A DNA stretch of 40,968 bases, from positions 1 to 40,968 of IMG/VR virus record IMGVR_UViG_3300047509_000145, one strand, 5' to 3'. Below, piece by piece: positions 2,827 through 40,968 of the stretch. This stretch comes from a virus. Position numbers and translations under genes: made by a program. The stretch's first letter is position 1. The number at the start of each line of letters is the position of its first letter. The notes under the pieces were generated by a model. That model was not told the origin of the DNA and did not search any database. It saw only the letters and a list, made by a program, of their open reading frames with translations.

Positions 2827-3062
2827 TGAACGCCGCCGTAAGAGGGTCGCGGTCGCGGTCGCGGTCGGGGTCGCGGTCGTGGTCGCGGTCGGGGTCGCGG
2901 TCGGGGTCGGGGTCGCGGTCGGGGTCGGGGTCGTGGTCGGGGTCGTGGTCGGGGTCGCGGTCGGGGTCGTGGTCGGGGTCGCGGTCGTGGTCGCGGTCGC
3001 GGTCGGGGCCGCTGTCGCTGTCGTGGTCGGGGTCGCGGTCGGGGTCGCGGTCGTGGTCGTGA
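2826..3062 (+). CDS. Ser-(Arg/Gly/Trp) dipeptide-repeat protein
   Basis: GTG overlaps the previous stop (TAGTG). After VNAAVRG the 78-aa product is almost only SR, SG and SW dipeptides; one short break reads GPLSLSWS. It ends with TGA at 3060-3062, overlapped in GTGA style by the winged-helix gene at 3059. Both junctions fit the operon pattern, so I favour this frame for the array over the (Val-x)n frame that runs into the winged-helix gene. The Ser-Arg runs recall RNA-binding RS domains, but that is analogy only. Alternatively the array is an untranslated spacer or the N-terminus of a 195-aa fused protein started at 2801. Confidence 0.5.
   Translation: MNAAVRGSRSRSRSGSRSWSRSGSRSGSGSRSGSGSWSGSWSGSRSGSWSGSRSWSRSRSGPLSLSWSGSRSGSRSWS
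2845..3060 (+). repeat. GGTCGN hexanucleotide array
   Basis: Thirty-six tandem 6-mers of form GGTCGN. N uses C, G and T and never A. Three consecutive units deviate (GGCCGC, TGTCGC, TGTCGT at 3007-3024) and there resemble the GCTGNC array at the window ends. No stop codon in plus frame 2 or in the minus-strand frame through the array. Confidence 0.95.
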
Positions 3063-3388
3063 TCCAGCGTCAGCGTGTCCTGGCCGCTCTGCGCCGTGCC
3101 GGCCCCGGCGGGATCACCCAAGTCAGTTTCCTCGGGCCGTTCACCGCCGATGGTGGTCCGCCGATCACGCGGCTTGCTGCCCGTGTCGGTGAGCTTCGCG
3201 ATGAGGGCTATGAGATCGTTCAGACGGGGTTGCGGGACAAGTGTGCCGTCTACGTGTTGAAGGGCGCTGTCGCGGCTCCTGTGCGTGTCGCTGAGCCCGC
3301 TCCAGAGAAGCCTGTGGGGTTGTTTGACCCTGCTACTGCGAGCCGCCCTCTGGGTGCGTATGACGATTACGACGCTGATGCCGCGTGA
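3059..3388 (+). CDS. Winged-helix DNA-binding protein
   Basis: GTG in a GTGA overlap gives 109 aa. Residues 1-70 form a winged helix common in actinophage early regions: RQRVLAALRRAGPGGITQ, then PPITRLAARVGELRDEGYEI and a hairpin ending KCAVYVLKG. The tail is acidic (AYDDYDADAA). The same frame is open upstream through the repeat array to an ATG at 2801, so an N-terminally extended form with (Val-Ala/Gly/Val)n cannot be excluded. Each T-type unit of the array supplies an in-frame GTG in this frame. Confidence 0.7.
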   Translation: MIQRQRVLAALRRAGPGGITQVSFLGPFTADGGPPITRLAARVGELRDEGYEIVQTGLRDKCAVYVLKGAVAAPVRVAEPAPEKPVGLFDPATASRPLGAYDDYDADAA

Positions 3389-12919: not shown

Positions 12920-13090
12920 ATTACCCGGCCGACCGATGGTCTGCCGGTGGTCTCGGGCCTAACGGCCCATTACGACGCAAGTTCCCTTGAGTTGGAGGAC
13001 GGCGCTTCCGTGCGCCTGTCCGACCTGCTCAAGCCGAAGCTGCCCCTCAGTTCTAGCCAGTCTGAACCCTCGGAACGTCGGTCCGGCTGA
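12920..13090 (+). pseudogene. N-terminal fragment of a LamG-like protein (start codon ATT)
   Basis: Five nt after GGAG (12911-12914) the frame ATT-ACC-CGG reads ITRPTDGLPVVSGLTAHYDA and SSLELEDGASV, the usual N-terminus of phage LamG/concanavalin-like tail or decoration proteins (compare WWDASALSLTDGTAVATW in the gene at 17744). The expected ATG is ATT, and the domain breaks off after about 45 residues; the matching C-terminal LamG half lies inverted at 13053-13600. I read this as a disrupted gene. Confidence 0.5.
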
Positions 13091-13559
13091 ACTGGACGTA
13101 CTTCCCGCCCTCTTTCAACTTGAAGTAGGGCAGGAACTTGGCGGCGTCTGCGTCTGAGATTGCCTGCTCGAAGACCAAAAGCTCACGCATCCCACCGTCC
13201 ACGTCACGCATGACGCGGATGCCGCTCGGCGGCGTCCCCGCGCTTGCGTTCCACTGGTCGATCTGCTCCCCATCGATCCACAACTCGACGTTGGTCTCAG
13301 AGCGGCGCAGCATGACCGCTGCCCACCGGCCCGCGAGCGATGCAACATCGAGTGGCGTGACCCGAACCTCGCCGGCCACTCGGGACGCGAGAAATCCGTC
13401 ATGGTCGAACGCGACTTGCAGGCTTCCGTCGAGGCTTTCAACCAGCGGGCCCGGACCATCGTCGCGGCGGAACGCGCCGACGACGGTCCAGCTTCCCTCC
13501 GAAAGCGCAAACTCTTGTGTCTCCATCGAGGTCATCAGGACGCCGCGCGCAACAGCCAT
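13053..13559 (-). CDS. LamG-like (concanavalin-type) domain, inverted, probably partial
   Basis: Read leftward, residues from MAVARGVLMTSMETQEFALS through SEGSWTVVGAFRRDDGPG, RWAAVMLRRSETNVELWIDG, SGIRVMRDVDGGMRELLVFE to ISDADAAKFLPYF form the C-terminal two thirds of a LamG domain (168 aa). No ribosome site precedes ATG 13559, and the open frame continues upstream (PVRSTASESSYSL), suggesting the true N-terminus was cut off near 13600. The only minus-strand gene of the structural region that is not HNH-like. Confidence 0.6.
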   Translation of the reverse strand: MAVARGVLMTSMETQEFALSEGSWTVVGAFRRDDGPGPLVESLDGSLQVAFDHDGFLASRVAGEVRVTPLDVASLAGRWAAVMLRRSETNVELWIDGEQIDQWNASAGTPPSGIRVMRDVDGGMRELLVFEQAISDADAAKFLPYFKLKEGGKYVQFSRTDVPRVQTG

Positions 13560-13609
13560 CAGCGAGTACGACGACTCCGATGCGGTGGACCTGACCGGAT
13601 GGTTGCGAG

Positions 13610-14059
13610 ATGTGTGGGGCGTCTGATGCTCCGCCGCAGGCTCATCATTCCGACTATGCCAAGCGGTTTGATGTGGCTTGGCTTTGTGTGAGGTGTCACG
13701 CTGCTGTGCATACTGATACGCCGGTTCGGGTTCGTACGGGGTTTCGTTTGCCTGCCGATCTGTTAGCGGCGGTGGATGCGGCCCGGGGCGACGTGTCGCG
13801 AACACAGTTCGTGGTGCGGGCGTTGGAGCGGGCGCTGGGTGATGACTGTCCTGGGTCGTCTGTGACGCGGGAGATGTATGCGAGTCCGTTGTTGGAGCGT
13901 CAGTTGCGGGAGCCGTACATCCCGGTGTGGGAGAAACCACCTGTGTTGGATGAGGCGCAGGCCAGTGAGGTTGGCAAGGTCCGGGTGTATGGGCCAGCCG
14001 AGACGTATGGACATCTTCCGAAGTGCACTTGTGCGGTGTGTAAGCCGCCGAAGTCTTAG
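13610..14059 (+). CDS. Zinc-finger (HNH-like remnant) fused to a ribbon-helix-helix domain
   Basis: 149 aa from ATG 13610. Residues 1-33 (MCGASDAPPQAHHSDYAKRF, LCVRCHAAVH) are the second half of an HNH/zinc unit; the missing first ligand lies just upstream of the ATG in the same frame (GCEMCG), cut by a TGA at 13592. Residues 38-78 (VRVRTGFRLPADLLAAVDAA, VSRTQFVVRALERAL) form a CopG-like RHH DNA-binding domain. The C-terminus again has KCTCAVCK. 5' truncation by the rearrangement at 13.05-13.6 kb is likely. Confidence 0.6.
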   Translation: MCGASDAPPQAHHSDYAKRFDVAWLCVRCHAAVHTDTPVRVRTGFRLPADLLAAVDAARGDVSRTQFVVRALERALGDDCPGSSVTREMYASPLLERQLREPYIPVWEKPPVLDEAQASEVGKVRVYGPAETYGHLPKCTCAVCKPPKS

Positions 14060-14088
14060 GTGGGGCTTGGCCCCGGGAAGGGGCTGGG

Positions 14089-14244
14089 ATGGCCTATACG
14101 GGCTTCAATAACTTGGTTGCGAAGACGGGGATGTCGCCTGCTCTCGCAGCGTTCATTTCTCGGAAGAAGTACGGCGCTAAGGCGACCGCGAAAGCTGCTG
14201 CCACGGGGAAGAGTCTTCGGGGCGCTCCGACTGTCAAGCGGTGA
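14089..14244 (+). CDS. Conserved small protein upstream of TerL, 51 aa
   Basis: ATG after GGAAGGGG (14076-14083); a GGGGC-TTG-GCCCC hairpin lies at 14062-14074. MAYTGFNNLVAKTGMSPALA then AFISRKKYGAKATAKAAATG: Lys/Ala-rich, typical of small actinophage proteins next to terminase. Overlaps TerL by 4 nt. Confidence 0.6.
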   Translation: MAYTGFNNLVAKTGMSPALAAFISRKKYGAKATAKAAATGKSLRGAPTVKR

Positions 14245-15746
14245 GGGTTGCGGAGCGGGTTGCTGCTGCGCGCCAGGCGTTGGCTGACAACCCCGCGCTC
14301 GCGAAGGACGCCCAGTTCGTTGCTGACCTCGCCGCTCTGGACGAGTTGCTTGAGGGGAATCCTCTTCAGGGCTTTGAGCCGCATGCGGCTCAGGTCCCGT
14401 TTTTCGATGCGACGACTCGGATCATTGCGGCGTTCTGCGGCAACCGGTTCGGCAAGACGACAGCCCTGACGGTCCGGGCTCTAATCGAGTGTGTCGATGA
14501 GGAGTGCTTGCCGCCTTGGTTGCGCCGGTATAAGCGGTGGAATAAGGAGACGGCGCCCAGGGGGACGTTCGGCAGGATCGTCAACCCGTCGTTCGGGCTG
14601 CTCAACAGCGTGGTCCTTGAGGCGTTTCGTCAGTGGTGTCCGGTGGATCAGCTTGTTGGCGGGTCGTTTGACAAGGCGTTCAAGGGTGCTCCGCAGTACC
14701 GGTTGAGCTTTAGGAACGGGTCGTTCATTGAGTTCATGACTCATGAGCAGGACTTGTCGAAGTTTGGTGGCGCGGCACGCCACTTCATTGGGTATGACGA
14801 GCCGCCACCGGCGGACATCAGGCAGGAGTGCCGGTTCAGGACGATCGACTTCGGCGGGTATGAGATGTTCGCGTGCACCCCGTTGAAGGTGAACGTGGGG
14901 TGGATGCGCCGCGACATCTTCAAGAAGCGCGAAGCACCGAACATCACGGTGGTCCGCGGGTCGATCCACGACAATCCGATGCTTGACGAGCAGGCCAAGC
15001 AGGAGGCGCTGGGTGACGCCTCAGACTTGTGGCGTGCGGCCCGCGAGTCCGGTGATTTCGTTGAGATGGGCGGCCTGATCTACGCCGACTTCGAGCGGCG
15101 CATCATTCCGCAGCCTGATGGTGACCGCATCAGGGGCCTCGAGGTCGTGATCGGTATCGACCCTGGTATCAGGAATGCGGCGATCGTGTTCGCCGGCTTC
15201 GACCGGGACGGTGTCCTTGTTGTGTTCCACGAGGAGCTGTTGCAGGACAAGGTTCCGACGGATTACGCTAACGCGATCCGCGATGGTCTCGCACGATGGG
15301 ACTTGAAGCAGGACAAGGCGACGTTCGTGATCGACCCGGCCGCGAAGTCGCGCAATCAGGAGAATGCTGAGACGGTGCAGTCGGCGTTGATGCGGTTGGG
15401 GATCATCACGATCAACGGCCAGAACAGCGTTGAGGCCGGCATCCAGCAGGTCCGGACCCGGATCGCGCATAAGCGCATCGAGATCAGCCAGGACTGCCGC
15501 CGGCTGCGGGATGAGGCCGATGAGTATGCGGCTGAGGATCGGACGGATGGCGAGTTCAAGCCGATCAAGACCGACCGGATGCACCTTCTCGACAGTCTCC
15601 GGTACATAGCGATGTACCAGCCGTATGACCCTGTTGTTGAGCAGGAGGCACCAGCGCAGATGCTTGGCTGGGAGCCGGACAAGGCTTTGTCTGAGAAGTA
15701 TTTGACCCGTCAGCGTGAGGTTGCGCCGATGGGGTCGATGTCGTGA
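14241..15746 (+). CDS. terL: Terminase large subunit
   Basis: 501 aa, GTG in a GTGA overlap. ATPase: Walker A CGNRFGKTT at residues 66-74, Walker B FIGYDEPP with D186/E187. Nuclease: VVIGIDPG with D307, FVIDPAAKS with D365 and MHLLDSLRY with D451, the three acidic positions of the RNase H-like domain. This motor cuts and pumps DNA into the prohead. Followed by a minus-strand HNH gene 3 nt after its stop. Confidence 0.95.
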   Translation: MRVAERVAAARQALADNPALAKDAQFVADLAALDELLEGNPLQGFEPHAAQVPFFDATTRIIAAFCGNRFGKTTALTVRALIECVDEECLPPWLRRYKRWNKETAPRGTFGRIVNPSFGLLNSVVLEAFRQWCPVDQLVGGSFDKAFKGAPQYRLSFRNGSFIEFMTHEQDLSKFGGAARHFIGYDEPPPADIRQECRFRTIDFGGYEMFACTPLKVNVGWMRRDIFKKREAPNITVVRGSIHDNPMLDEQAKQEALGDASDLWRAARESGDFVEMGGLIYADFERRIIPQPDGDRIRGLEVVIGIDPGIRNAAIVFAGFDRDGVLVVFHEELLQDKVPTDYANAIRDGLARWDLKQDKATFVIDPAAKSRNQENAETVQSALMRLGIITINGQNSVEAGIQQVRTRIAHKRIEISQDCRRLRDEADEYAAEDRTDGEFKPIKTDRMHLLDSLRYIAMYQPYDPVVEQEAPAQMLGWEPDKALSEKYLTRQREVAPMGSMS

Positions 15747-15749
15747 TGG

Positions 15750-16232
15750 TCAGCCGTTTGCGTAGGGCATGTGCTGGCGGCGGTACTCCGCTACGGCGCG
15801 GCCCGCCTCATGCACATCTTTGAACCGGCCGATGCGCTTCTGCTTGCCGTTGATGCAACAGGAAGCTCCCCACCGCTGGCGGTCTTCCAGCCAGTGGACG
15901 CCTCGGTATCCGGACTTGTTGTTGCTGTATCCCTCCGCCGAGAAGTTCTGTCGGTTGAGGGCATCCGTTGCTGGGCGTAGGTTCTCTCGACGGTTGTCGA
16001 GGCCGTTTCGGTTGATGTGATCGGCTTGGAGGCCATCACCGGGTTGCAGGCCCAGCACCAGGCGATGTAGGTACACCGTCTTGCCGTCAATCTTCGCGGA
16101 GGCGTAGGTGCCCTTGCCGATCGCGACGATGTGCCACTTGTGGCCCTCGACTAGACGTCGGTCTGCGGCTGATACCAGCACGATGTGCTTGGACCCGTCG
16201 CGCTTGGTTATGACCTTCTCGAATGACTCCAT
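15750..16232 (-). CDS. HNH homing endonuclease with AP2-like domain
   Basis: 160 aa on the minus strand between terL and the next virion gene. N-terminal substrate/beta region (MESFEKVITKRDGSKHIVLV), HNH_3 core LHRLVLGLQPGDGLQADHIN and GLDNRRENLRPAT, then an AP2 DNA-binding region SGYRGVHWLEDRQRWGASCC with IGRFKDVHEAGRAVAEYRR. Free-standing mobile endonuclease; opposite orientation and insertion between structural genes fit a homing origin. Confidence 0.85.
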   Translation of the reverse strand: MESFEKVITKRDGSKHIVLVSAADRRLVEGHKWHIVAIGKGTYASAKIDGKTVYLHRLVLGLQPGDGLQADHINRNGLDNRRENLRPATDALNRQNFSAEGYSNNKSGYRGVHWLEDRQRWGASCCINGKQKRIGRFKDVHEAGRAVAEYRRQHMPYANG

Positions 16233-16285
16233 AGCGGCAAGTTTACCGACTTAGTACCCAAAGACCTAGTGAAAGGACGTGGCCC

Positions 16286-16540
16286 ATGGCTGCGACTAAG
16301 GCGGCAAAGGCCGCTCCGAAGAAGCCTGCCGCAAAGGCCAAGCCGGCGGCCAAGAAGCCAGTGGCGAAGCCGAAGGCCGCACCGGCCGCCAAGGCGGTCG
16401 AGCTGACACCGATCAACGATGGCGTCTCGATCGTTGTTGGTGACGCGAACGCAGTCGTGAAGATCAATGGCACGTTCGACCTCGACGGCCTCATCTCGGT
16501 CGTCAAGCAGGTCGATCATGCGCGGGCGGCGCTGTCCTGA
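16286..16540 (+). CDS. Lys/Ala/Pro-rich small protein, 84 aa
   Basis: ATG after AAAGGA (16273-16278). Residues 1-36 are histone-H1-like (AAKAAPKKPAAKAKPAAKKP), followed by a compact beta/alpha end (DGVSIVVGDANAVVKINGTF). The basic tail should bind DNA or the acidic virion interior. Stop overlaps the next ATG. Function unknown. Confidence 0.65.
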   Translation: MAATKAAKAAPKKPAAKAKPAAKKPVAKPKAAPAAKAVELTPINDGVSIVVGDANAVVKINGTFDLDGLISVVKQVDHARAALS

Positions 16541-16854
16541 TGGCCCGCACACTGACCGAAGAAATCACTGGCTGGGGTCATTGCACGAACCCGAGGTGTG
16601 AGGGTCACGCCCAGACCGAGATCCCCGTGTTCAAGGACACGGTGGAGCACACCTACGCCGATAGCGGTGGTGATCTGCCGGGTGTCGAGAAGTCCCAGGT
16701 GTATTACCGCCCGGTGAATGATGAGGACGCAACATGCCCGGTGTGTGAGGGGCAGCGCGATGTGACGGGGCAGAAGCGTCCGGTCATCATGCCGTTGTCC
16801 GGTCACGACCAGGCCGGCCTGCTTCAGTACAAGCCGCCGGAGGTTCCTGTATGA
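16540..16854 (+). CDS. Zinc-binding-like protein, 104 aa
   Basis: ATG in TGATG overlap. HCTNPRCEGHAQ and TCPVCEGQRD bracket a beta-rich middle, forming one CxxxxC/CxxC zinc site. Found in the same place in related structural operons as I recall; role unknown. Confidence 0.6.
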   Translation: MARTLTEEITGWGHCTNPRCEGHAQTEIPVFKDTVEHTYADSGGDLPGVEKSQVYYRPVNDEDATCPVCEGQRDVTGQKRPVIMPLSGHDQAGLLQYKPPEVPV

Positions 16855-17237
16855 GGTGGGTGCCGACGGCGACGATCAACCCGCACCGGTGCGCCGTCAT
16901 CCCGTTTGTGTCGGCGAGCGATCCCGAAGGGTTCATTGATACCGGTAGCGAGCTGTCCGGGTTCGGCCCAGACAAGCATGTGTACGTGTCAGTGAAGGCC
17001 GTGAACGAGATGGCGTCGCTGATTGGTCGGCCGACGATCAGCCAGTTCCGTGAGGTCGTTGACTCGAACATTGCGCTTGCCTCCAAGCTTGCGGAAGTGA
17101 CTGCTGAGCGTGACGGGCTTGAGGAGCGGTTCGCCGCGATCGACGTCCTCGCGTCAGCAGATTTCGTGGCTCGCAAGAAGCAGGGCCGCCGGCCAACAAA
17201 GAAGGACGAGACACCCGAGGAGGTTGTGGCCGCATGA
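16851..17237 (+). CDS. Hypothetical protein, 128 aa
   Basis: ATG in an ATGA overlap. Residues 1-50 have a beta pattern with GFGPDKHVYVSVKAVNEMAS, then a coiled coil (ALASKLAEVTAERDGLEERF) and a Lys/Glu-rich end (KKQGRRPTKKDETPEE). Likely virion assembly or capsid-associated; no family known. Confidence 0.6.
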   Translation: MRWVPTATINPHRCAVIPFVSASDPEGFIDTGSELSGFGPDKHVYVSVKAVNEMASLIGRPTISQFREVVDSNIALASKLAEVTAERDGLEERFAAIDVLASADFVARKKQGRRPTKKDETPEEVVAA

Positions 17238-17743
17238 GCGAGTCCAAGACAGGTGCGGCTACCCCGAGCACCGTTACCGTTATCGGTGGTGGTGATGGCA
17301 CGAACGCCAGGACGCTGAAGGTGTCATCGTCCGGTGTCGTGTCCGTTGATGGTTCGGCTGTTACGCAGCCGGTGTCGGGGACGGTTACCGCGAACGCCGG
17401 CACCGGGACGATGGTGGTTGACACTATCGGCGGTAGGACGATCCTGTTCGCTTCGATCAGTGCTGCGTCGTCAGGCAACAACACGATCATCAGCGCGGTC
17501 ACATCGAAGAAGATCACCGTCCTCGGGTACGTGCTTGTCGCTGATGGTGCGGTCACCGCACAGTGGCAGGACGGCGCCTCGGGTACCGCTTTGTCGGGGG
17601 CTATGTCGTTCGCTGCGAACGGCGGCGTGTCCGCTCATCTGGGCGGTATTCCGATGATGCAGGGCAGCACAGCCACGCTGCTGAACCTCAACCTCGGTGG
17701 GGCCGTTGGTGTGCGCGGCCACATTGCCTACTACACCGTTTAG
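17234..17743 (+). CDS. Virion structural protein, beta-rich, 169 aa
   Basis: ATG in an ATGA overlap. Ser/Thr/Gly-rich strands (NNTIISAVTSKKITVLGYVL, LSGAMSFAANGGVSAHLGGI, LLNLNLGGAVGVRGHIAYYT). The pattern of IISAV-KKI-VL and a terminal H-x-Y strand recurs in phage decoration or tail-tip proteins with a jelly-roll-like fold. Precise role uncertain. Confidence 0.65.
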   Translation: MSESKTGAATPSTVTVIGGGDGTNARTLKVSSSGVVSVDGSAVTQPVSGTVTANAGTGTMVVDTIGGRTILFASISAASSGNNTIISAVTSKKITVLGYVLVADGAVTAQWQDGASGTALSGAMSFAANGGVSAHLGGIPMMQGSTATLLNLNLGGAVGVRGHIAYYTV

Positions 17744-18469
17744 GTGACACTTCTCCTCACAGGCGCCGGGACAGCCGTTGACACGCCCCCCTACGTGCCT
17801 GATCCAACGGTGTTGGCGCTTGGGCCGGCTTGCTGGTGGGACGCCTCAGCGTTGTCGCTGACTGATGGCACAGCTGTCGCCACGTGGGCTGACGTGTCGG
17901 GTAACGCGCGAACTCTGACACAGGCCACCGGTTCTCACCAGCCGACTTACAAGACCAACATCGTCAACGGCAAGCCGGTCGTGCGGTTCTCCGGTGCAGG
18001 CAGCGCGAAGGGCATGAAGGCGTCGGCATTCACGTTGAATCAACCGTTTTCGGTGTACATGGCCGTGATGATGGTTCAGACCGCTAGCCAGGCGAGCGTG
18101 AGCCAGGCTCGCCTGTTGGACGGCAATGCGGCCGATTCGACGGTCATCTATGAGGCCTCTTCAGGTAGCTGGACCGTGTACGGCGGAACTTCAAACGGTC
18201 CGGCTGTTACGCCGGGTACCTCCATATTTCATGTTTTGACGGCTGAGTGGAATGGTGCGAGCAGCAACGAGGCTCTTGACGGGGCGGCATTCACCACTGC
18301 GAGTACTGGTACCAATAATGCTGGTGGGTTCACGCTCGGATGCCGAGCCAGCATCACTCAGGGCACTACCTCCGATGTTGCCGAGTGTCTCGTGTTTGCT
18401 TCGCAGCTGGGTTCGACTGATCGCAGCACCGTCGAGACCTACTTGAAGAACAAGTACGCCACTCCCTAA
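17744..18469 (+). CDS. LamG/concanavalin-like virion protein, 241 aa
   Basis: GTG directly after the previous stop. After a short leader, PACWWDASALSLTDGTAVAT, WADVSGNARTLTQATGS, GKPVVRFSGAG and a C-terminal strand set ending LKNKYATP give a complete LamG-type lectin domain, often used for surface-glycan binding by phage tails or capsid decorations. The broken LamG gene at 12.9-13.6 kb may be a relative. Confidence 0.75.
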   Translation: MTLLLTGAGTAVDTPPYVPDPTVLALGPACWWDASALSLTDGTAVATWADVSGNARTLTQATGSHQPTYKTNIVNGKPVVRFSGAGSAKGMKASAFTLNQPFSVYMAVMMVQTASQASVSQARLLDGNAADSTVIYEASSGSWTVYGGTSNGPAVTPGTSIFHVLTAEWNGASSNEALDGAAFTTASTGTNNAGGFTLGCRASITQGTTSDVAECLVFASQLGSTDRSTVETYLKNKYATP

Positions 18470-19926: not shown

Positions 19927-22887
19927 GTGCCGCTCGAACTACCACCCAGTGTTCAGCAGGGCATGGACCGTGGCCGCAAAAAGATGCGGAAGGGTGCCGC
20001 GTCTCGCCGGTTGTGTATGCGGTTCGAGAAGGGCGACACCTACCACTACATCGACAGCAAGGGCACCCTCAACGTCCAGAGCACGGTCACGAGTATTCAG
20101 GGTGCCGGTAAGCCGCCACACCGAATCCGCAACCGGTACAACTTCATCCGCCCCATCGTTGAGGCGAAGATCAGTGCGGCTACGCAGCGCATCCCGTCGT
20201 ATGAGATCACGCCTACGACGACGGACCCCACCACCATCGCTGCCGCCTCGCTGTCGGAGCGGGTGGCGTTGTACGGGTACGACCAGTGGCGGCTCCGCAA
20301 CGTCTCGCTGAAAACAGTCAAGCTCGCCATCGCTGGTGGCGGTGACGGATTCGCCCTCCCGTACTTCGACCCGAACGTCGGCCCCTATGAGGACCCACTG
20401 GACGGTGGCCCGCCCGTTGGCCGTGGCGAGATCAAGATCCTCGTCCTGTCCGGTAACGAGGTCTACTGGGAAGCCGGCTCAACGTTCGAGGAATCCCCCT
20501 GGTACGTCGTAGAGCGCGCCCGCCCGATTGATGACGTGATGCTGACCCCGGGCATCATCCCAGGGACAAAGCTCGCACCCGACGCATCCACGAACGACAT
20601 CCCGTCAGACCGGGACGCCACTGACAACCTCGTCATGACGTCCGAGTATTTCGAACGGCCATCACCGAGGTTCACGGACGGCAGGTGCATCGTCATCGCG
20701 AACGGCAAACCAATCGTGGACTACCGCCTGGTTGATCCAACCTGCACGGATTGGTGGGGGCCGTACCCGTTGCAGGACCCGGACGGCACAGTCCTCGACG
20801 AACCCCTTCTCCACCGCTTGTCGTACACGGTGGATGCGGACACCGACCGCGACTTCGGGTTGGTGTGGCAGCTGATCGACTTTCAGCGCACCGCACAGGA
20901 CTGCGTGGCGGGCGACACACTGGTCCAAACGGCAGAGGGCCTGCGTCCGGCCCGCGACCTTGCGGGCCAGGAGATCTCCACCCTTGCGGGCGACGGTGTC
21001 TTCCGGCCCGCAAGGTGGAACTCCTACGGCAAGAAGGAACTCTGGCGCGTCACCTTCGATGACGGCACCACAGTCGAGGCAACTCAGAACCACCGCTGGA
21101 TCGTCAACCGGCGCTACGCAGGCAAGACCGAAGAGGTCACCACTCCTCTCCTCGTCGGCGAGCGCGTTCCTTACCGCTCCCTGAAGGCCCACACGCCCGT
21201 CACGGACACGCGGGACTGGTGGGCCGGTGTTCAGAACGGCTTGATGTGGGGCGACGGCACCGTCGAGCATCACAAGCGTGGCGAGCGCGAGTACGCCTAC
21301 GGCTCCATCCGCCAGTACTCGAGCGATGAAAATCTTGGACTGATCGAGAGATTCTTCCCCGATACCTGCACCGAGCGCCGCGAGTACGAGGGACGGGCGT
21401 GGATAGGCGCTCGGGGCATCGATCCGGCTCTCAAGTCCGTCCCGTCGTTCGATAAGGGCATCGATTACCTGCGCGGCTTCCTTGCCGGCGCCATCGCCTC
21501 GGATGGCACTGTTAGCACCGCCGCCACCGTGAGCATCTGCCAGAGCAACCGGCAGGAACTAGAAGCCGTCGCCACCGTAGCTCGGACCGTGGGCATCATC
21601 CCGGTTGGACTACACCATCAGGCCAAGGGCAACTGGATCTTGACGCTCGCGAAGGAAAGCTTTGTCGATGGGGCCGGCGTTGACGAAAACCTGATCCTCA
21701 AGCCTTCGCACATCAGGAAGCTGTCGAAGGCCACCGCGTATCGAAGGGTGCGTACGAGGCGCGTCGTCAGCGTCGAGCCAACAGGTCGCGTAGAGGAAAC
21801 CTTCTGTTGCGAGGAACCAGTTACACAAAGTTGGGTTATGGGCAGCGGCCTGATTACCGGAAATTGTGTAAATAAATTGTTAGAGTGGAAGAACCGTTGT
21901 TTGAATCCGCAGATGATCGCGGCAATCAACCAGCTGATCGGCACCCTCGATGATGTCCCCGGCGCGGTGCGCCTCTACCGGCCGATTGGTGGTTATCCGC
22001 CGCCGCAGTGGGAGACCCCGCCCCCCGTTCCGAAGGCGTTGTTCGACATTCTTGAGTGGACGATCAACGCCATGGCCCAGGTGGCATCAGATCAGCAGGT
22101 AGACCCGGCCCCGAACCTTGCCGCTAGGACGCTTGAGGCGGGGATTGAGCAGTCACAGAACCGGTGGCAGTCGTTCCTTGGTGACCTTGCCGAGTGGCAC
22201 TCACGGTTGATGCGCCACTGCCTTCTTCTGGTTGCCCGGTACTACACCGAACCGCGCCTGTTGGAGCTCAGGGGCCGTGACGGGTGGGAACTGGTGCAGG
22301 ACTTCCGTGGCGCTCAGCTTGAGGGGCAGACCCAGGTCCGGGTGTTGCCGAATTCGATCACTCCGATCACTAGGGCGGGGATTCAGGACCAGTTGACGTG
22401 GATCAACCAGAACTTCCCCGGGTTCCTGAACCCTGAGGCCGCGATCGCCGCGCTTGAGGCCGGTTCGATTGAGCGGTTGACGCAGTCGTATTGGCTGGAT
22501 GTCGGGAAGGCGAACACGGTCATCCAGAAGATCATGGACGGCAGCGTTCTTCAGATGCCGACCCGTCAGGACACGATGCCGGACGGCTCGACGGTTGAGG
22601 ATGTCTCGACGTACATGCCGGGGCCGGCGGACAACCTGAACGTCTGGAAGAGCGTGTTCGGTGACTTCCTGAAGACCGACAGCTTTGAGCGGTTGGAGCC
22701 GTCGTTGCAGGAGGTCACTAATCAGATTTGGTCGGGCATTCAGTTCCTTGAGACCCAGCGCGCCCAGCAACAGGCCGCACAGCAGAACGCAATGGCCAGC
22801 CAGTTGGGGATGGAGAACGCGGCGAAACCGCAGGCGAAGGGCATGCCCAGCCTGCCCGGTTCGTCCACGGTTCCTGCGGCCCGTTAG
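19927..22887 (+). CDS. Portal protein with an in-frame intein
   Basis: 986 aa, GTG start; 665 aa after removal of a 321-aa intein, a normal size for a podovirus portal. Extein features: NRYNFIRPIVEAKISAATQR near the N-terminus, DFGLVWQLIDFQRTAQD directly before the intein and CVNKLLEWKNRCLNPQ after it, then a long helical C-terminus rich in Gln (RAQQQAAQQNAMA). The portal forms the dodecameric DNA gate at one capsid vertex. The intein sits in the conserved wing/stem motif, where imperfect removal would ruin assembly. Confidence 0.9.
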   Translation: MPLELPPSVQQGMDRGRKKMRKGAASRRLCMRFEKGDTYHYIDSKGTLNVQSTVTSIQGAGKPPHRIRNRYNFIRPIVEAKISAATQRIPSYEITPTTTDPTTIAAASLSERVALYGYDQWRLRNVSLKTVKLAIAGGGDGFALPYFDPNVGPYEDPLDGGPPVGRGEIKILVLSGNEVYWEAGSTFEESPWYVVERARPIDDVMLTPGIIPGTKLAPDASTNDIPSDRDATDNLVMTSEYFERPSPRFTDGRCIVIANGKPIVDYRLVDPTCTDWWGPYPLQDPDGTVLDEPLLHRLSYTVDADTDRDFGLVWQLIDFQRTAQDCVAGDTLVQTAEGLRPARDLAGQEISTLAGDGVFRPARWNSYGKKELWRVTFDDGTTVEATQNHRWIVNRRYAGKTEEVTTPLLVGERVPYRSLKAHTPVTDTRDWWAGVQNGLMWGDGTVEHHKRGEREYAYGSIRQYSSDENLGLIERFFPDTCTERREYEGRAWIGARGIDPALKSVPSFDKGIDYLRGFLAGAIASDGTVSTAATVSICQSNRQELEAVATVARTVGIIPVGLHHQAKGNWILTLAKESFVDGAGVDENLILKPSHIRKLSKATAYRRVRTRRVVSVEPTGRVEETFCCEEPVTQSWVMGSGLITGNCVNKLLEWKNRCLNPQMIAAINQLIGTLDDVPGAVRLYRPIGGYPPPQWETPPPVPKALFDILEWTINAMAQVASDQQVDPAPNLAARTLEAGIEQSQNRWQSFLGDLAEWHSRLMRHCLLLVARYYTEPRLLELRGRDGWELVQDFRGAQLEGQTQVRVLPNSITPITRAGIQDQLTWINQNFPGFLNPEAAIAALEAGSIERLTQSYWLDVGKANTVIQKIMDGSVLQMPTRQDTMPDGSTVEDVSTYMPGPADNLNVWKSVFGDFLKTDSFERLEPSLQEVTNQIWSGIQFLETQRAQQQAAQQNAMASQLGMENAAKPQAKGMPSLPGSSTVPAAR
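20902..21864 (+). mobile_element. Intein with LAGLIDADG endonuclease in the portal gene
   Basis: Codons 326-646. Block A CVAGDTLVQTAEGLRPARDL; block B TVEATQNHRW; endonuclease motifs NGLMWGDGTV and RGFLAGAIASDGTV (two LAGLIDADG helices); block F EETFCCEEP; end SGLITGN followed by extein Cys. The usual penultimate His is Gly here (TGN). The downstream junction is AT-rich against a GC-rich background (21861-21890). Confidence 0.85.
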
Positions 22888-25011: not shown

Positions 25012-25641
25012 TCAGGCCGCGAAGTGGATCTGGCCTTCGAGCCGGGTTGCTTTCTTTCGGTTACAGGACCGGCATGCGAGCTGCACGTTGGCTCGCGTGT
25101 CCGGTCCGCCGAGAGCGATGGGAACGATGTGGTCGATCTCGAATCCGTAGGGCTTGTATTCGAGGGCGATGCCGCAGTAGGTGCAGGCGCCGTTGTCGCG
25201 CTGGTAGATCTCGGTGCGGGTGTAGCCGTCTGACTCTGCGTTGGCGAGTCGGGCGCGGCGCTTGTGGACGTGGTCCGCGCGTTTGGTGGGGTTGTTCTTC
25301 TCCCACTTGCGCTTGTACTCACGGGCCTTCTCCGGGTTGGCGAGTGCCCAGCGACGTGAGATAGCGATCCACTTTGCCGGGTCGTTCTGGTAGTCCTGCC
25401 GTTTGGCATCACGCTTTGCCTCACGAATGGAAGGGTCGGCAGCAACGCGCCGAGCCTCTCGTTTGCGACTGGCCTTGCGGGATTCCTGTAGGTTCGCGTG
25501 ATAGCGGGCTTTGACGTACGCGCAGTGGCAAGCCTTGCACTCGCTTCGTAGTCCAGTCTTGCTATTCGCGTTCTTCCCGTACTCGGTGAGCGGCTTGCGC
25601 TCGCCGCATTTCGTACAGGTCTTAGTATCTGGCTCGCTCAT
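25012..25641 (-). CDS. HNH endonuclease with N-terminal zinc knuckle
   Basis: 209 aa on the minus strand between capsid and decoration genes. N-terminal zinc unit TCTKCGERKP with SECKACHCAY, basic middle (SRKASRKREARRVA), C-terminal HNH core CTYCGIALEYKPYGFEIDHI, VPIALGG, LACRSCNRKKATR. A free-standing homing-type nuclease. Its start is preceded by a structured leader almost identical in part to that at 27352-27419 on the plus strand; the frame is open through the leader, so an N-terminal extension is possible. Confidence 0.85.
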   Translation of the reverse strand: MSEPDTKTCTKCGERKPLTEYGKNANSKTGLRSECKACHCAYVKARYHANLQESRKASRKREARRVAADPSIREAKRDAKRQDYQNDPAKWIAISRRWALANPEKAREYKRKWEKNNPTKRADHVHKRRARLANAESDGYTRTEIYQRDNGACTYCGIALEYKPYGFEIDHIVPIALGGPDTRANVQLACRSCNRKKATRLEGQIHFAA

Positions 25642-25715
25642 GGGGGTCGCTCCCTGTGGGCCGGCCCCTGGCACTCGCAAGGTGCGCGGGGGCGTTTTGT
25701 AGCTAGCGAAGTCTA
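25642..25715 (-). promoter_or_regulatory. HNH leader, copy A (minus strand)
   Basis: Read on the minus strand: TAGACT (25715-25710) as possible -10, then TACAAAACGCCCCCGCG, a CGCA-CCT-TGCG stem, AGGGGC and the block GGCCCACAGGGAGCGACCCC directly before ATG 25641. The first C-run can pair with the G-run; the G-run can also pair with the last C-run beside the start codon. Compare copy B at 27352-27419. Confidence 0.6.
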
Positions 25716-25797: not shown

Positions 25798-26169
25798 ATG
25801 GCCGCAGCAGTTATCACTGTCACCCGACCCAGCGATGTGCGCGGGTGCGTGATCGGCAACAAGAGGATGTCGTTCCGTGACATCACCGCCAACACTGGTG
25901 ACTATGCGGCGGGTGGGTTCACGCTCACGGCTGCGCAGCTCGTCAGCAGCGCGAAGCACATCGACTTCGTTTCGGTGGGGTCGATGGCGACCGATGGCAC
26001 GTCAGGTGCGACGTGCGAAGTGGTCGGCATCAACTACCTCTCATCGGGTACGTCGGTGCAGTTTCAGGTCTACCAGACCGGCACGTCAGCGGACGCCCCG
26101 ATGAACGAGAAGGGCGCCGAAGCCTACGCGGCAAACTTCACTTTCCGCGTGATGATCATCCACACCTAG
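25798..26169 (+). CDS. Capsid decoration-like protein, 123 aa
   Basis: ATG 8 nt after AAGGGGG (25784-25790). Small beta-rich protein (IGNKRMSFRDITANTGDYAA, TSVQFQVYQTGTSADA, FTFRVMIIHT) directly downstream of the capsid gene, the usual place for head-decoration proteins. No exact family recognised. Confidence 0.65.
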   Translation: MAAAVITVTRPSDVRGCVIGNKRMSFRDITANTGDYAAGGFTLTAAQLVSSAKHIDFVSVGSMATDGTSGATCEVVGINYLSSGTSVQFQVYQTGTSADAPMNEKGAEAYAANFTFRVMIIHT

Positions 26170-27321: not shown

Positions 27322-27351
27322 TAATGAGCGTCCTCGCCGGGTGCGATAATC

Positions 27352-27419
27352 GGAGGACTTACAAAGCGCCCCCGCGACGAGTGAACGTCCGGGGGCATGG
27401 CCCACAGGGAGCGACCCCC
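27352..27419 (+). promoter_or_regulatory. Structured leader, copy B (plus strand)
   Basis: After a TGCGATAAT extended -10-like box (27342-27350): TACAAAGCGCCCCCGCG (27360-27376), loop, CGGGGGC (27390-27396), then GGCCCACAGGGAGCGACCCC up to ATG 27420. GCCCCCG pairs with CGGGGGC; alternatively the same GGGGG pairs with CCCCC at 27415-27419, next to the start codon. The last 29 nt, through the first codons, are identical to copy A. Confidence 0.65.
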
Positions 27420-27527
27420 ATGAGCGACCGGGAATCTACCGTGCCGTACGGCTATTGCCATTGCGGCTGCGGACGCAAGACGGCCCTCTCAACACAGACC
27501 CTTCCTGCCGCGATTACGTCTACATGA
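27420..27527 (+). pseudogene. Zinc-knuckle fragment of an HNH-type gene, frameshifted
   Basis: 35 aa: MSDRESTVPYGYCHCGCGRK then TALSTQT and a short unrelated end. CHCGCG is the zinc motif of phage HNH-type proteins. In another frame the text continues DPSCRDYVYMIRGGKAWREI and stops at 27557-27559, right before the next ATG, so the gene was likely about 46 aa or is a 3'-truncated HNH remnant. The frame is also open from ATG 27324 through the leader. Confidence 0.5.
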
Positions 27528-27559
27528 TTCGAGGCGGCAAGGCTTGGCGAGAGATCTAG

Positions 27560-40143: not shown

Positions 40144-40968
40144 CTACCATCAAGACCAGGCTCAAGGCCGTCAAGAACATCCCCCTCAGCGCGGGCGGCC
40201 ACGACGACCCTGCCGACCACATCCCCGGCGCGTTCTGCGCGATGGAGAAGTTCGCGTACGTCACCGGCCAGTCCTGGACCGACAACCCCGCCAACTGCTG
40301 CCCGACCGTTGGAGCGTTTATCCGCCGCTACCAGGACGGGACCGACCAGGCGGGCCGTGACGATCTGGACAAGTGGATGTTCAAGCCCGCCAACCTCGAC
40401 CGCCTGTTGGCGACCGCTGGGGATGGGAAGCGCGAGCAGCGCGGCTACCTCGCCGCTGACTGGGCGATCCGTGTCGCCCTCCCCGTCTGGCTCGACGCCG
40501 CGACGTCCACCGAGGCCGCCGCGATGCTGCGCGCCCTCCCGGAGATCACGGACGCCAAGACCGCGAGCAAGGGCCGTGCGGCCGTAGCGAAGGCCCGCAA
40601 GGGACTCCCGGACTATTGGGCGTGGCGCAGCGAACTGCGCGCCAAGGTCGAAGCTGCGGTGACCGAGGCGTTGAAGGACAAGAAGGCTGCCGCTGCCGCT
40701 GTCGCTGACGCTGCCGCTGCCGCTGACGCTGCCGCTGTCGCTGCCGCTGCCGCTGCCGCTGTCGCTGCCGCTGCCGCTGCCGCTGTCGCTGACGCTGCCG
40801 CTGTCGCTGACGCTGCCGCTGTCGCTGACGCTGTCGCTGCCGCTGCCGCTGTCGCTGTCGCTGACGCTGCCGCTGACGCTGCCGCTGTCGCTGCCGCTGT
40901 CGCTGTCGCTGCCGCTGCCGCTGACGCTGCCGCTGCCGCTGCCGCTGCCGCTGCCGCTGTCGCTGACG
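40140..40968 (+). CDS. Ala-rich repeat protein, N-terminal part (continues at window start)
   Basis: GTG in a GTGA overlap with the RHH gene; runs off the end. Residues 1-182 are unique: HDDPADHIPGAFCAMEKFAY, TDNPANCCPTVGAFIRRYQD, YLAADWAIRVALPVWLDAA and MLRALPEITDAK match a common actinobacterial/phage hypothetical family whose members carry Ala-rich tails. YWAWRSELRAKVEAAVTEAL follows, then 47 GCTGNC units (Ala-Ala/Asp/Val). The rest is at 1-298. Role unknown; placed right after the early promoter, so made early and in quantity. Confidence 0.75.
   Translation, partial: MTTIKTRLKAVKNIPLSAGGHDDPADHIPGAFCAMEKFAYVTGQSWTDNPANCCPTVGAFIRRYQDGTDQAGRDDLDKWMFKPANLDRLLATAGDGKREQRGYLAADWAIRVALPVWLDAATSTEAAAMLRALPEITDAKTASKGRAAVAKARKGLPDYWAWRSELRAKVEAAVTEALKDKKAAAAAVADAAAAADAAAVAAAAAAAVAAAAAAAVADAAAVADAAAVADAVAAAAAVAVADAAADAAAVAAAVAVAAAAADAAAAAAAAAAAVAD
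40686..40967 (+). repeat. GCTGNC hexanucleotide array, left part
   Basis: Forty-seven uninterrupted GCTGNC units. Variable base by row: CCTACCACT, CCCTCCCTAC, TACTATCCTT, ACACTCTTCC, ACCCCCTA. N is C, T or A and never G. With 2-121 the array has at least 67 units, all in one reading frame. Confidence 0.95.

Follow-up and report, generated by a model that had tools for sequence, protein, structure and literature searches.

A candidate family of structured 5' leaders before homing-type endonuclease and other mobile-element genes of phages and bacteria

The locus, its two leader copies and the genes behind them

The stretch of DNA analysed here (hereafter the window; 40,968 nt) is a virus record with terminase, portal and capsid genes. 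A repeat search across the whole window returned, as its longest inverted pair, positions 25623-25701 and 27360-27438 (79 nt, 75% identity), which lie on opposite strands and are referred to below as copy A (minus strand) and copy B (plus strand). Pairwise alignment shows that the copies have in common TACAAA, CGCCCCCGCG and a 22-nt spacer of equal length, together with a 29-nt identical block, GGCCCACAGGGAGCGACCCCCATGAGCGA, that runs into the ATG as ATGAGCGA. The first-pass annotation of this DNA had reported these blocks, the equal spacer and the 29-nt identity, and all were found in place.

Behind copy A lies a 209-aa HNH endonuclease gene (25012-25641, minus strand), flanked by the major capsid gene and the gene at 25798 and on the opposite strand. 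It encodes the HNH domain looked for in a homing endonuclease gene (Pfam PF01844, 6.6e-14), and it differs by presence or absence between relatives: in two of these, L018 and L019, the site is without the HNH gene and a terminator-like hairpin follows the capsid gene instead. Copy B precedes a decayed HNH_3 endonuclease gene (27420-27559, plus strand), recognised by comparison with L018, a relative whose capsid protein is 86% identical; there the corresponding site carries an intact HNH_3 gene of 178 aa, likewise preceded by a leader of this kind. In the window there is an N-terminal 35-codon ORF (27420-27527, MSDRESTVPYGYCHCGCGRKT...) and then a C-terminal piece in another frame; thus, copy B leads a gene remnant, and the second of the two zinc/HNH-type genes described earlier is not an intact nuclease. 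A further HNH_3 gene (15750-16232, minus strand, 160 aa) had no match to the leader model ahead of it, so the leader is not on every HNH gene of the phage. By blastn, neither the HNH gene region nor the 5-kb terminase region from 13000 to 18000 had a match in phages.

Each copy has the same succession of features. In copy B, a predicted extended -10 box, TGCGATAAT (27342-27350, plus strand), proposed from the sequence and from a family-wide peak of TANNNT, stands 18 nt from the first hairpin, P1; the first base of its hexamer departs from T, and L018 has TGCGAGAAT at this position. P1 itself (GCCCCCG/CGGGGGC; 27368-27396) folds alone, with a bulged C27375, an upper stem GACG/CGTC and a 6-nt loop, and is supported by a covariance-model match (E=1e-9) and by covariation across the family. 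The second hairpin, P2 (27396-27422), also seen in the fold, pairs GGG (27407-27409) with CCC and includes the Shine-Dalgarno sequence (SD) AGGGAG, while CAT (27396-27398) faces the start codon; support for P2 is family-wide, and copy B has only three core Watson-Crick pairs there. In copy A (minus strand), a predicted -10 box, TAGACT (25710-25715), proposed on the same grounds, lies 17 nt from P1 (GCCCC/GGGGC with an internal loop; 25664-25693), which is seen in the fold and matched by the model at E=0.0066, and whose upper stem, GCAC/GTGC, has diverged. P2 and the start codon follow as GGG AGCGA CCCCC ATG (25639-25654) by sequence, alignment and fold, with the SD AGGGAG inside the hairpin and again three core pairs only. 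Folded whole, the leaders of A and B showed no stability beyond that of shuffled sequences (z -0.25 to -1.82).

Copy B thus reads as an intact leader before a decayed HNH gene and copy A as a diverged copy, whose P2/start segment, identical to that of B, suggests local copying between the two. The letters of the shared block and of the window's P2 are, by these comparisons, private to the source phage: a 22-nt shared block had no exact match in viral contigs, nor did a pattern that required the letters of the window's P2 match anything there.

Two further features of the window were noted. A portal ORF (19927-22887, plus strand, 986 aa) has what seems to be an intein-like insertion (CVAGDTLVQTAEGL...GLITGNC) between two portal parts, and a repeat family with 12/18-nt spacing occurs at both ends and once inside (2-181, 2849-3064 and 40620-40961), which suggests that the ends of the record overlap or that the coding sequence there is repetitive.

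Recognition and reach of the family

As blastn queries, the single leaders gave mostly chance matches, apart from a weak match of copy B (E=0.02) that lies 23 nt ahead of an HNH gene in Arthrobacter phage Pitbull. Comparison of copy B, L018 and Pitbull yielded a looser pattern, CCCCCGCG-N9..17-CCGGGGGCATG, that retrieved at least 120 viral stretches, nearly all with an SD and a start codon behind them. In bacterial genomes, where most matches came from Streptomyces, a pattern of this type retrieved at least 119 stretches. A consensus used as a blastn query matched 13 Arthrobacter phage records, and most of these matches run into or just precede an annotated HNH endonuclease gene. Eight pattern matches of Methylobacterium/Beijerinckiaceae type with GGGGACGCGGGACGCC were left out as another element. 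In Methylobacterium and relatives (L208, L210, L235, L239, L247, L250, L273 and L276) we observed a different conserved element, a C-run/G-run hairpin with GGGGACGCGGGACGCCGCG about 15-35 nt further on.

Twenty-two viral leaders from other contigs, with the window copies and L018 excluded, served to build a covariance model (R1). Searched against the 41-kb window, R1 matched copy B at 36.5 bits (E=1e-9) and copy A at 14.6 bits (E=0.0066), exactly in place, and gave no other credible match (next-best E=1.9). Both copies are therefore matched beyond chance by an independently built model. For leaders with the SD in the 5' arm of P2, the MAFFT alignment left P2 out of register. Rfam 15 gave no family match in the window at the gathering threshold, only tRNAs in a search at the leaders of 20 loci, and, in 20 further loci at E<=1, a tRNA and one sub-threshold match to PtaRNA1 on the opposite strand of one locus. 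No description of such a leader was found in the literature searched, which covered few subscription journals. Copies A and B thus belong to an RNA leader family that is apparently uncatalogued and absent from Rfam.

Among evenly drawn genomes, R1 at E<=1e-4 matched 22 of 247 Actinomycetota (1-5 copies each) and 7 of 151 Chloroflexota, and none of 249 Pseudomonadota. Viral matches came from over 100 contigs and from several Arthrobacter phages, at 1-3 copies per virus record. In a sample that was not chosen by the leader, namely loci retrieved by a protein search with the HNH gene of L018, an R1 match lay directly upstream of the matched gene in L161, L155, L149/L150, L158 and L018's own locus, and two more loci (L147, L156) had the same architecture by eye with different stems.

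The genes behind the leader are diverse. HNH endonucleases account for at least 23 of 83 non-redundant viral downstream genes (a single HNH family alone matches 23, HNH_3 19), which bears out the frequent link to homing-type nucleases proposed earlier. Other viral leaders precede a GIY-YIG gene (L040), integrases, Bro-N antirepressors and Endonuclease VII. In bacterial genomes we found a resolvase (L315), HTH_17/AlpA-type excisionase-like genes (L314, L319) and phage integrases (L264, L333), as well as many small proteins without a Pfam family, and most of the cargo is without known function. None of the 52 bacterial downstream proteins scanned was an HNH protein, so the leader, which the first-pass annotation had tied to HNH or zinc genes, is not restricted to them; its suggestion that the leader is kept or moved independently of the coding part fits the unrelated genes found behind it. 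Cas1 genes were also observed behind four genomic leaders of Actinomycetota/Chloroflexota, L320 (263-1141, plus strand), L321, L325 and L332 (681-1502, minus strand), those of L321 and L325 with a Cys-rich N-terminal stretch. In Streptomyces loci such as L202, L213 and L216, small proteins without a Pfam family have a common C-terminal LVRPY...HGIDIGPRxIHG, and many chromosomal leaders precede proteins of this kind.

Pairing, ribosome site and predicted promoter

The family layout is a TANNNT box, hairpin P1 (a C-run/G-run stem with a bulged C) and hairpin P2 with the SD, about 60 nt in all or about 80 nt with the predicted promoter. The P1 loop is mostly of 6 nt and CNNNAA-type, and preferences are seen at both bulge and loop, although the C-run pattern used for collection inflates the apparent sequence conservation of P1; P2 mostly has 3-6 core pairs.

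In the R1 alignment (MAFFT, 22 sequences), two-sided changes occur in 7 of 19 pairs, a count that none of 500 shuffles reached. A second set of 28 sequences, most of which are model matches in genomes sampled evenly across the phylum, shows compensatory changes in 15 of 19 pairs (9.3 expected from shuffling) and a covariation score of 0.413, against 0.129+-0.013 for shuffled and at most 0.043 for slid partners, in an alignment that was fitted to the structure and so favours covariation. The lower stem of P1 takes part as well, with CG changed to GC in 8 sequences at one pair. At P1 pair 2 the usual exception is A.C (41 of 149 leaders) and not G.U; A.C would be a wobble pair on the opposite strand.

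P2 was examined independently of any model in 149 non-redundant leaders. The best Watson-Crick stem in the interval from P1 to the start codon has a mean length of 4.29 bp, compared with 3.06+-0.07 bp when 3' halves are swapped between sequences. These leaders hold 75 different P2 stems, and in 134 of them the SD overlaps the hairpin. In the commoner layout (96 of 149), the SD lies in the loop and 3' arm; in the other, which includes the window copies and L018, it forms part of the 5' arm and immediately precedes the start codon, with stems of 4.37 bp against 3.70+-0.16 bp when swapped. In many copies a CAU that directly follows P1 pairs with the start codon. Within the R1 alignment the base after CATG co-varies with the base before the start codon (ACC with GAT, GCC with GAC), and the P2 stem should therefore continue to CAU opposite AUG. 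Judged from these alignments, P1 and P2 are kept by compensatory change, P2 being tied to the SD and the start codon.

Pair covariation above both shuffled and slid controls, with the independent-model matches to both copies, upholds the earlier view of a structured leader with a hairpin at the ribosome site. Coding conservation without pair covariation would have spoken for an N-terminal peptide instead; the opposite was found, and a peptide is out because the downstream proteins are unrelated and a recurrent TA is not tied to one codon phase. An upstream ORF beginning at the CATG motif's ATG was likewise rejected, its frame relation to the main start being near random (59/47/43). The recurrent dinucleotide, UA in the RNA, is found 13-17 nt after P2 across the 149 leaders in more than one codon phase (T at gene base 12 in 88 of them), and in the window at 27437-27438 (plus strand) and 25624-25623 (minus strand). 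One part of the first-pass annotation, a switch between two mutually exclusive stems, fails because the second C-run was not found elsewhere: its pairing with the G-run is confined to the source phage, CCCC within 8 nt of the start was seen in just one leader out of 149, and the corresponding letters of L018 are GCCTC. The closing hairpin common to the family is, on the pairing evidence, P2.

A -10-like box is enriched shortly upstream. TANNNT occurs 10-24 nt before P1 in 64 of 149 leaders, compared with 16.7+-3.8 in shuffled sequence, and peaks at 12-15 nt. The transcript should therefore start a few nucleotides before P1, and the leader seems to carry its own promoter. Separately, L281, L283 and L290 have an operator-like inverted repeat, GGAGAG...CTCTCC, just upstream of the leader.

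Possible roles and comparison with known leaders

Taken together, we consider it probable that copies A and B belong to a family of structured 5' leaders that moves about as a self-contained expression cassette and restrains translation. Transcription from the predicted promoter would begin just before P1; P2 would limit ribosome access or make it conditional, and enzymes that cut or join DNA, which are potentially harmful, would thus be made sparingly; and P1 may protect or position the 5' end or serve as the recognition site of a factor. The leader sits before genes of unrelated kinds, a good number of which encode mobile-element nucleases or recombinases. In the commoner P2 layout, the loop-exposed SD could instead help initiation. 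If the leader does set the expression of nucleases, integrases and Cas1, it would offer one handle on how mobile elements restrain DNA-breaking enzymes, as well as a ready mark for finding such genes.

A rather less likely proposal is that the family constitutes an undescribed, widespread riboregulator class with its own promoter, a cassette portable between phages and hosts. P1 would then sense a common signal for mobile-element genes (homing endonucleases, integrases, resolvases, excisionases, Cas1) and for many small actinobacterial proteins. The corresponding molecular reading, in which P1, with its bulged C and CNNNAA-type loop, binds a ligand or protein signalling to phage and host genes alike and P2 is the expression platform, seems to us rather doubtful. 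It would make sense of the P1 bulge and loop preferences, the UA about 13-17 nt after P2 and the occurrence of one leader before unrelated genes; however, sequence conservation is low for a small-molecule aptamer, that of P1 being inflated by the way sequences were collected, and no conserved alternative pairing was seen.

It is unlikely that the leader is instead a 5'-end stabiliser and translation enhancer, with P1 shielding the mRNA end and the P2 loop presenting the SD without repression. The predicted position of P1, a few nucleotides from the transcript start, and the placement of the SD from the loop into the 3' arm in the commoner layout would suit such a role, whereas the covariation of P2 extends to SD bases and the start codon, and in the other layout, to which the window copies belong, it is the 5' arm of the stem that contains the SD.

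A site acting as DNA, either an operator or a protein-binding inverted repeat as proposed for the ESAS repeats of cluster K mycobacteriophages, appears very unlikely. The leaders do lie upstream of start codons, hairpins are inverted repeats in DNA too, and the exceptions are A.C rather than G.U, but a DNA site would conserve sequence, and here the stems change by compensatory pairs while the position of P2 is fixed relative to SD and start codon. Hardly credible is an intrinsic terminator read on the opposite strand: copy A on the plus strand does give a G-rich stem and then GGCGTTTTGT, but an A-run of four (the T-run of the other strand) lies within 10 nt of P1 in only 14 of 149 leaders, which largely refutes it, TTTT on the opposite strand is found in copy A alone, there is no T-run on the sense side, and P2 and the promoter would be left unexplained. 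A plain recent duplication or gene conversion within the source phage, without RNA function, is as improbable: it accounts for the 29-nt block identical in A and B and not in L018, but not for the family outside the phage, and as a full explanation it is refuted by the match of a model from other genomes to both copies.

The closest parallels are the homing endonuclease genes of T4-type phages (I-TevI, I-TevII, I-TevIII, segB and Aeh1 mobE), in which an RNA hairpin hides the ribosome site; this hairpin forms on long early/middle transcripts but not on the late transcript, whose promoter is positioned to prevent it (PMC2988022). The comparison with T4 drawn earlier stands as regards the ribosome site, which the leader likewise hides in a hairpin before homing-type endonuclease genes, with the SD within it, and fails as regards the promoter, since the -10-like boxes of the predicted promoter lie upstream of P1 and of the whole leader and not inside P2. 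The leader further differs in its extra hairpin P1 and in being common to unrelated genes and two phyla. In Aeromonas phage 25, a stable hairpin lies just upstream of the ribosome site of the homing endonuclease gene seg43(25) (PMC2988022), but it leaves that site unhidden, and the description mentions neither a second hairpin nor a family.

A second point of comparison is the Start-Associated Sequence (SAS, 5'-GGGATAGGAGCCC) with its extended form (ESAS), described in cluster K mycobacteriophages (PMC3203893) and in Microbacterium cluster EF (PMC7302621). Like the leader, SAS/ESAS are repeated at the ribosome site of several genes, have GGG...CCC symmetry around the SD and, in cluster K, an upstream inverted repeat. 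The 13-bp GGGATAGGAGCCC-type consensus is not present at the ribosome site here: the window has CAGGGAGCGACCCCC, and the P2 stems of the family are of 75 sequences. Within a single phage cluster SAS/ESAS are conserved as a sequence consensus, whereas the leader varies its sequence and keeps its pairing, and for the ESAS repeats the authors found little support for RNA pairing (PMC3203893).

Leaders that conceal the ribosome site are known from a small number of T4 homing endonucleases, every one of which has a hairpin of its own. Here a single leader architecture recurs before unrelated mobile-element genes, in phages as well as chromosomes, and in both Actinomycetota and Chloroflexota. Since the leader hides the SD as in T4 without the T4 promoter placement, since SAS/ESAS keep sequence and not pairing, and since Rfam holds no match, we regard it as a probable new leader family of unusual portability.
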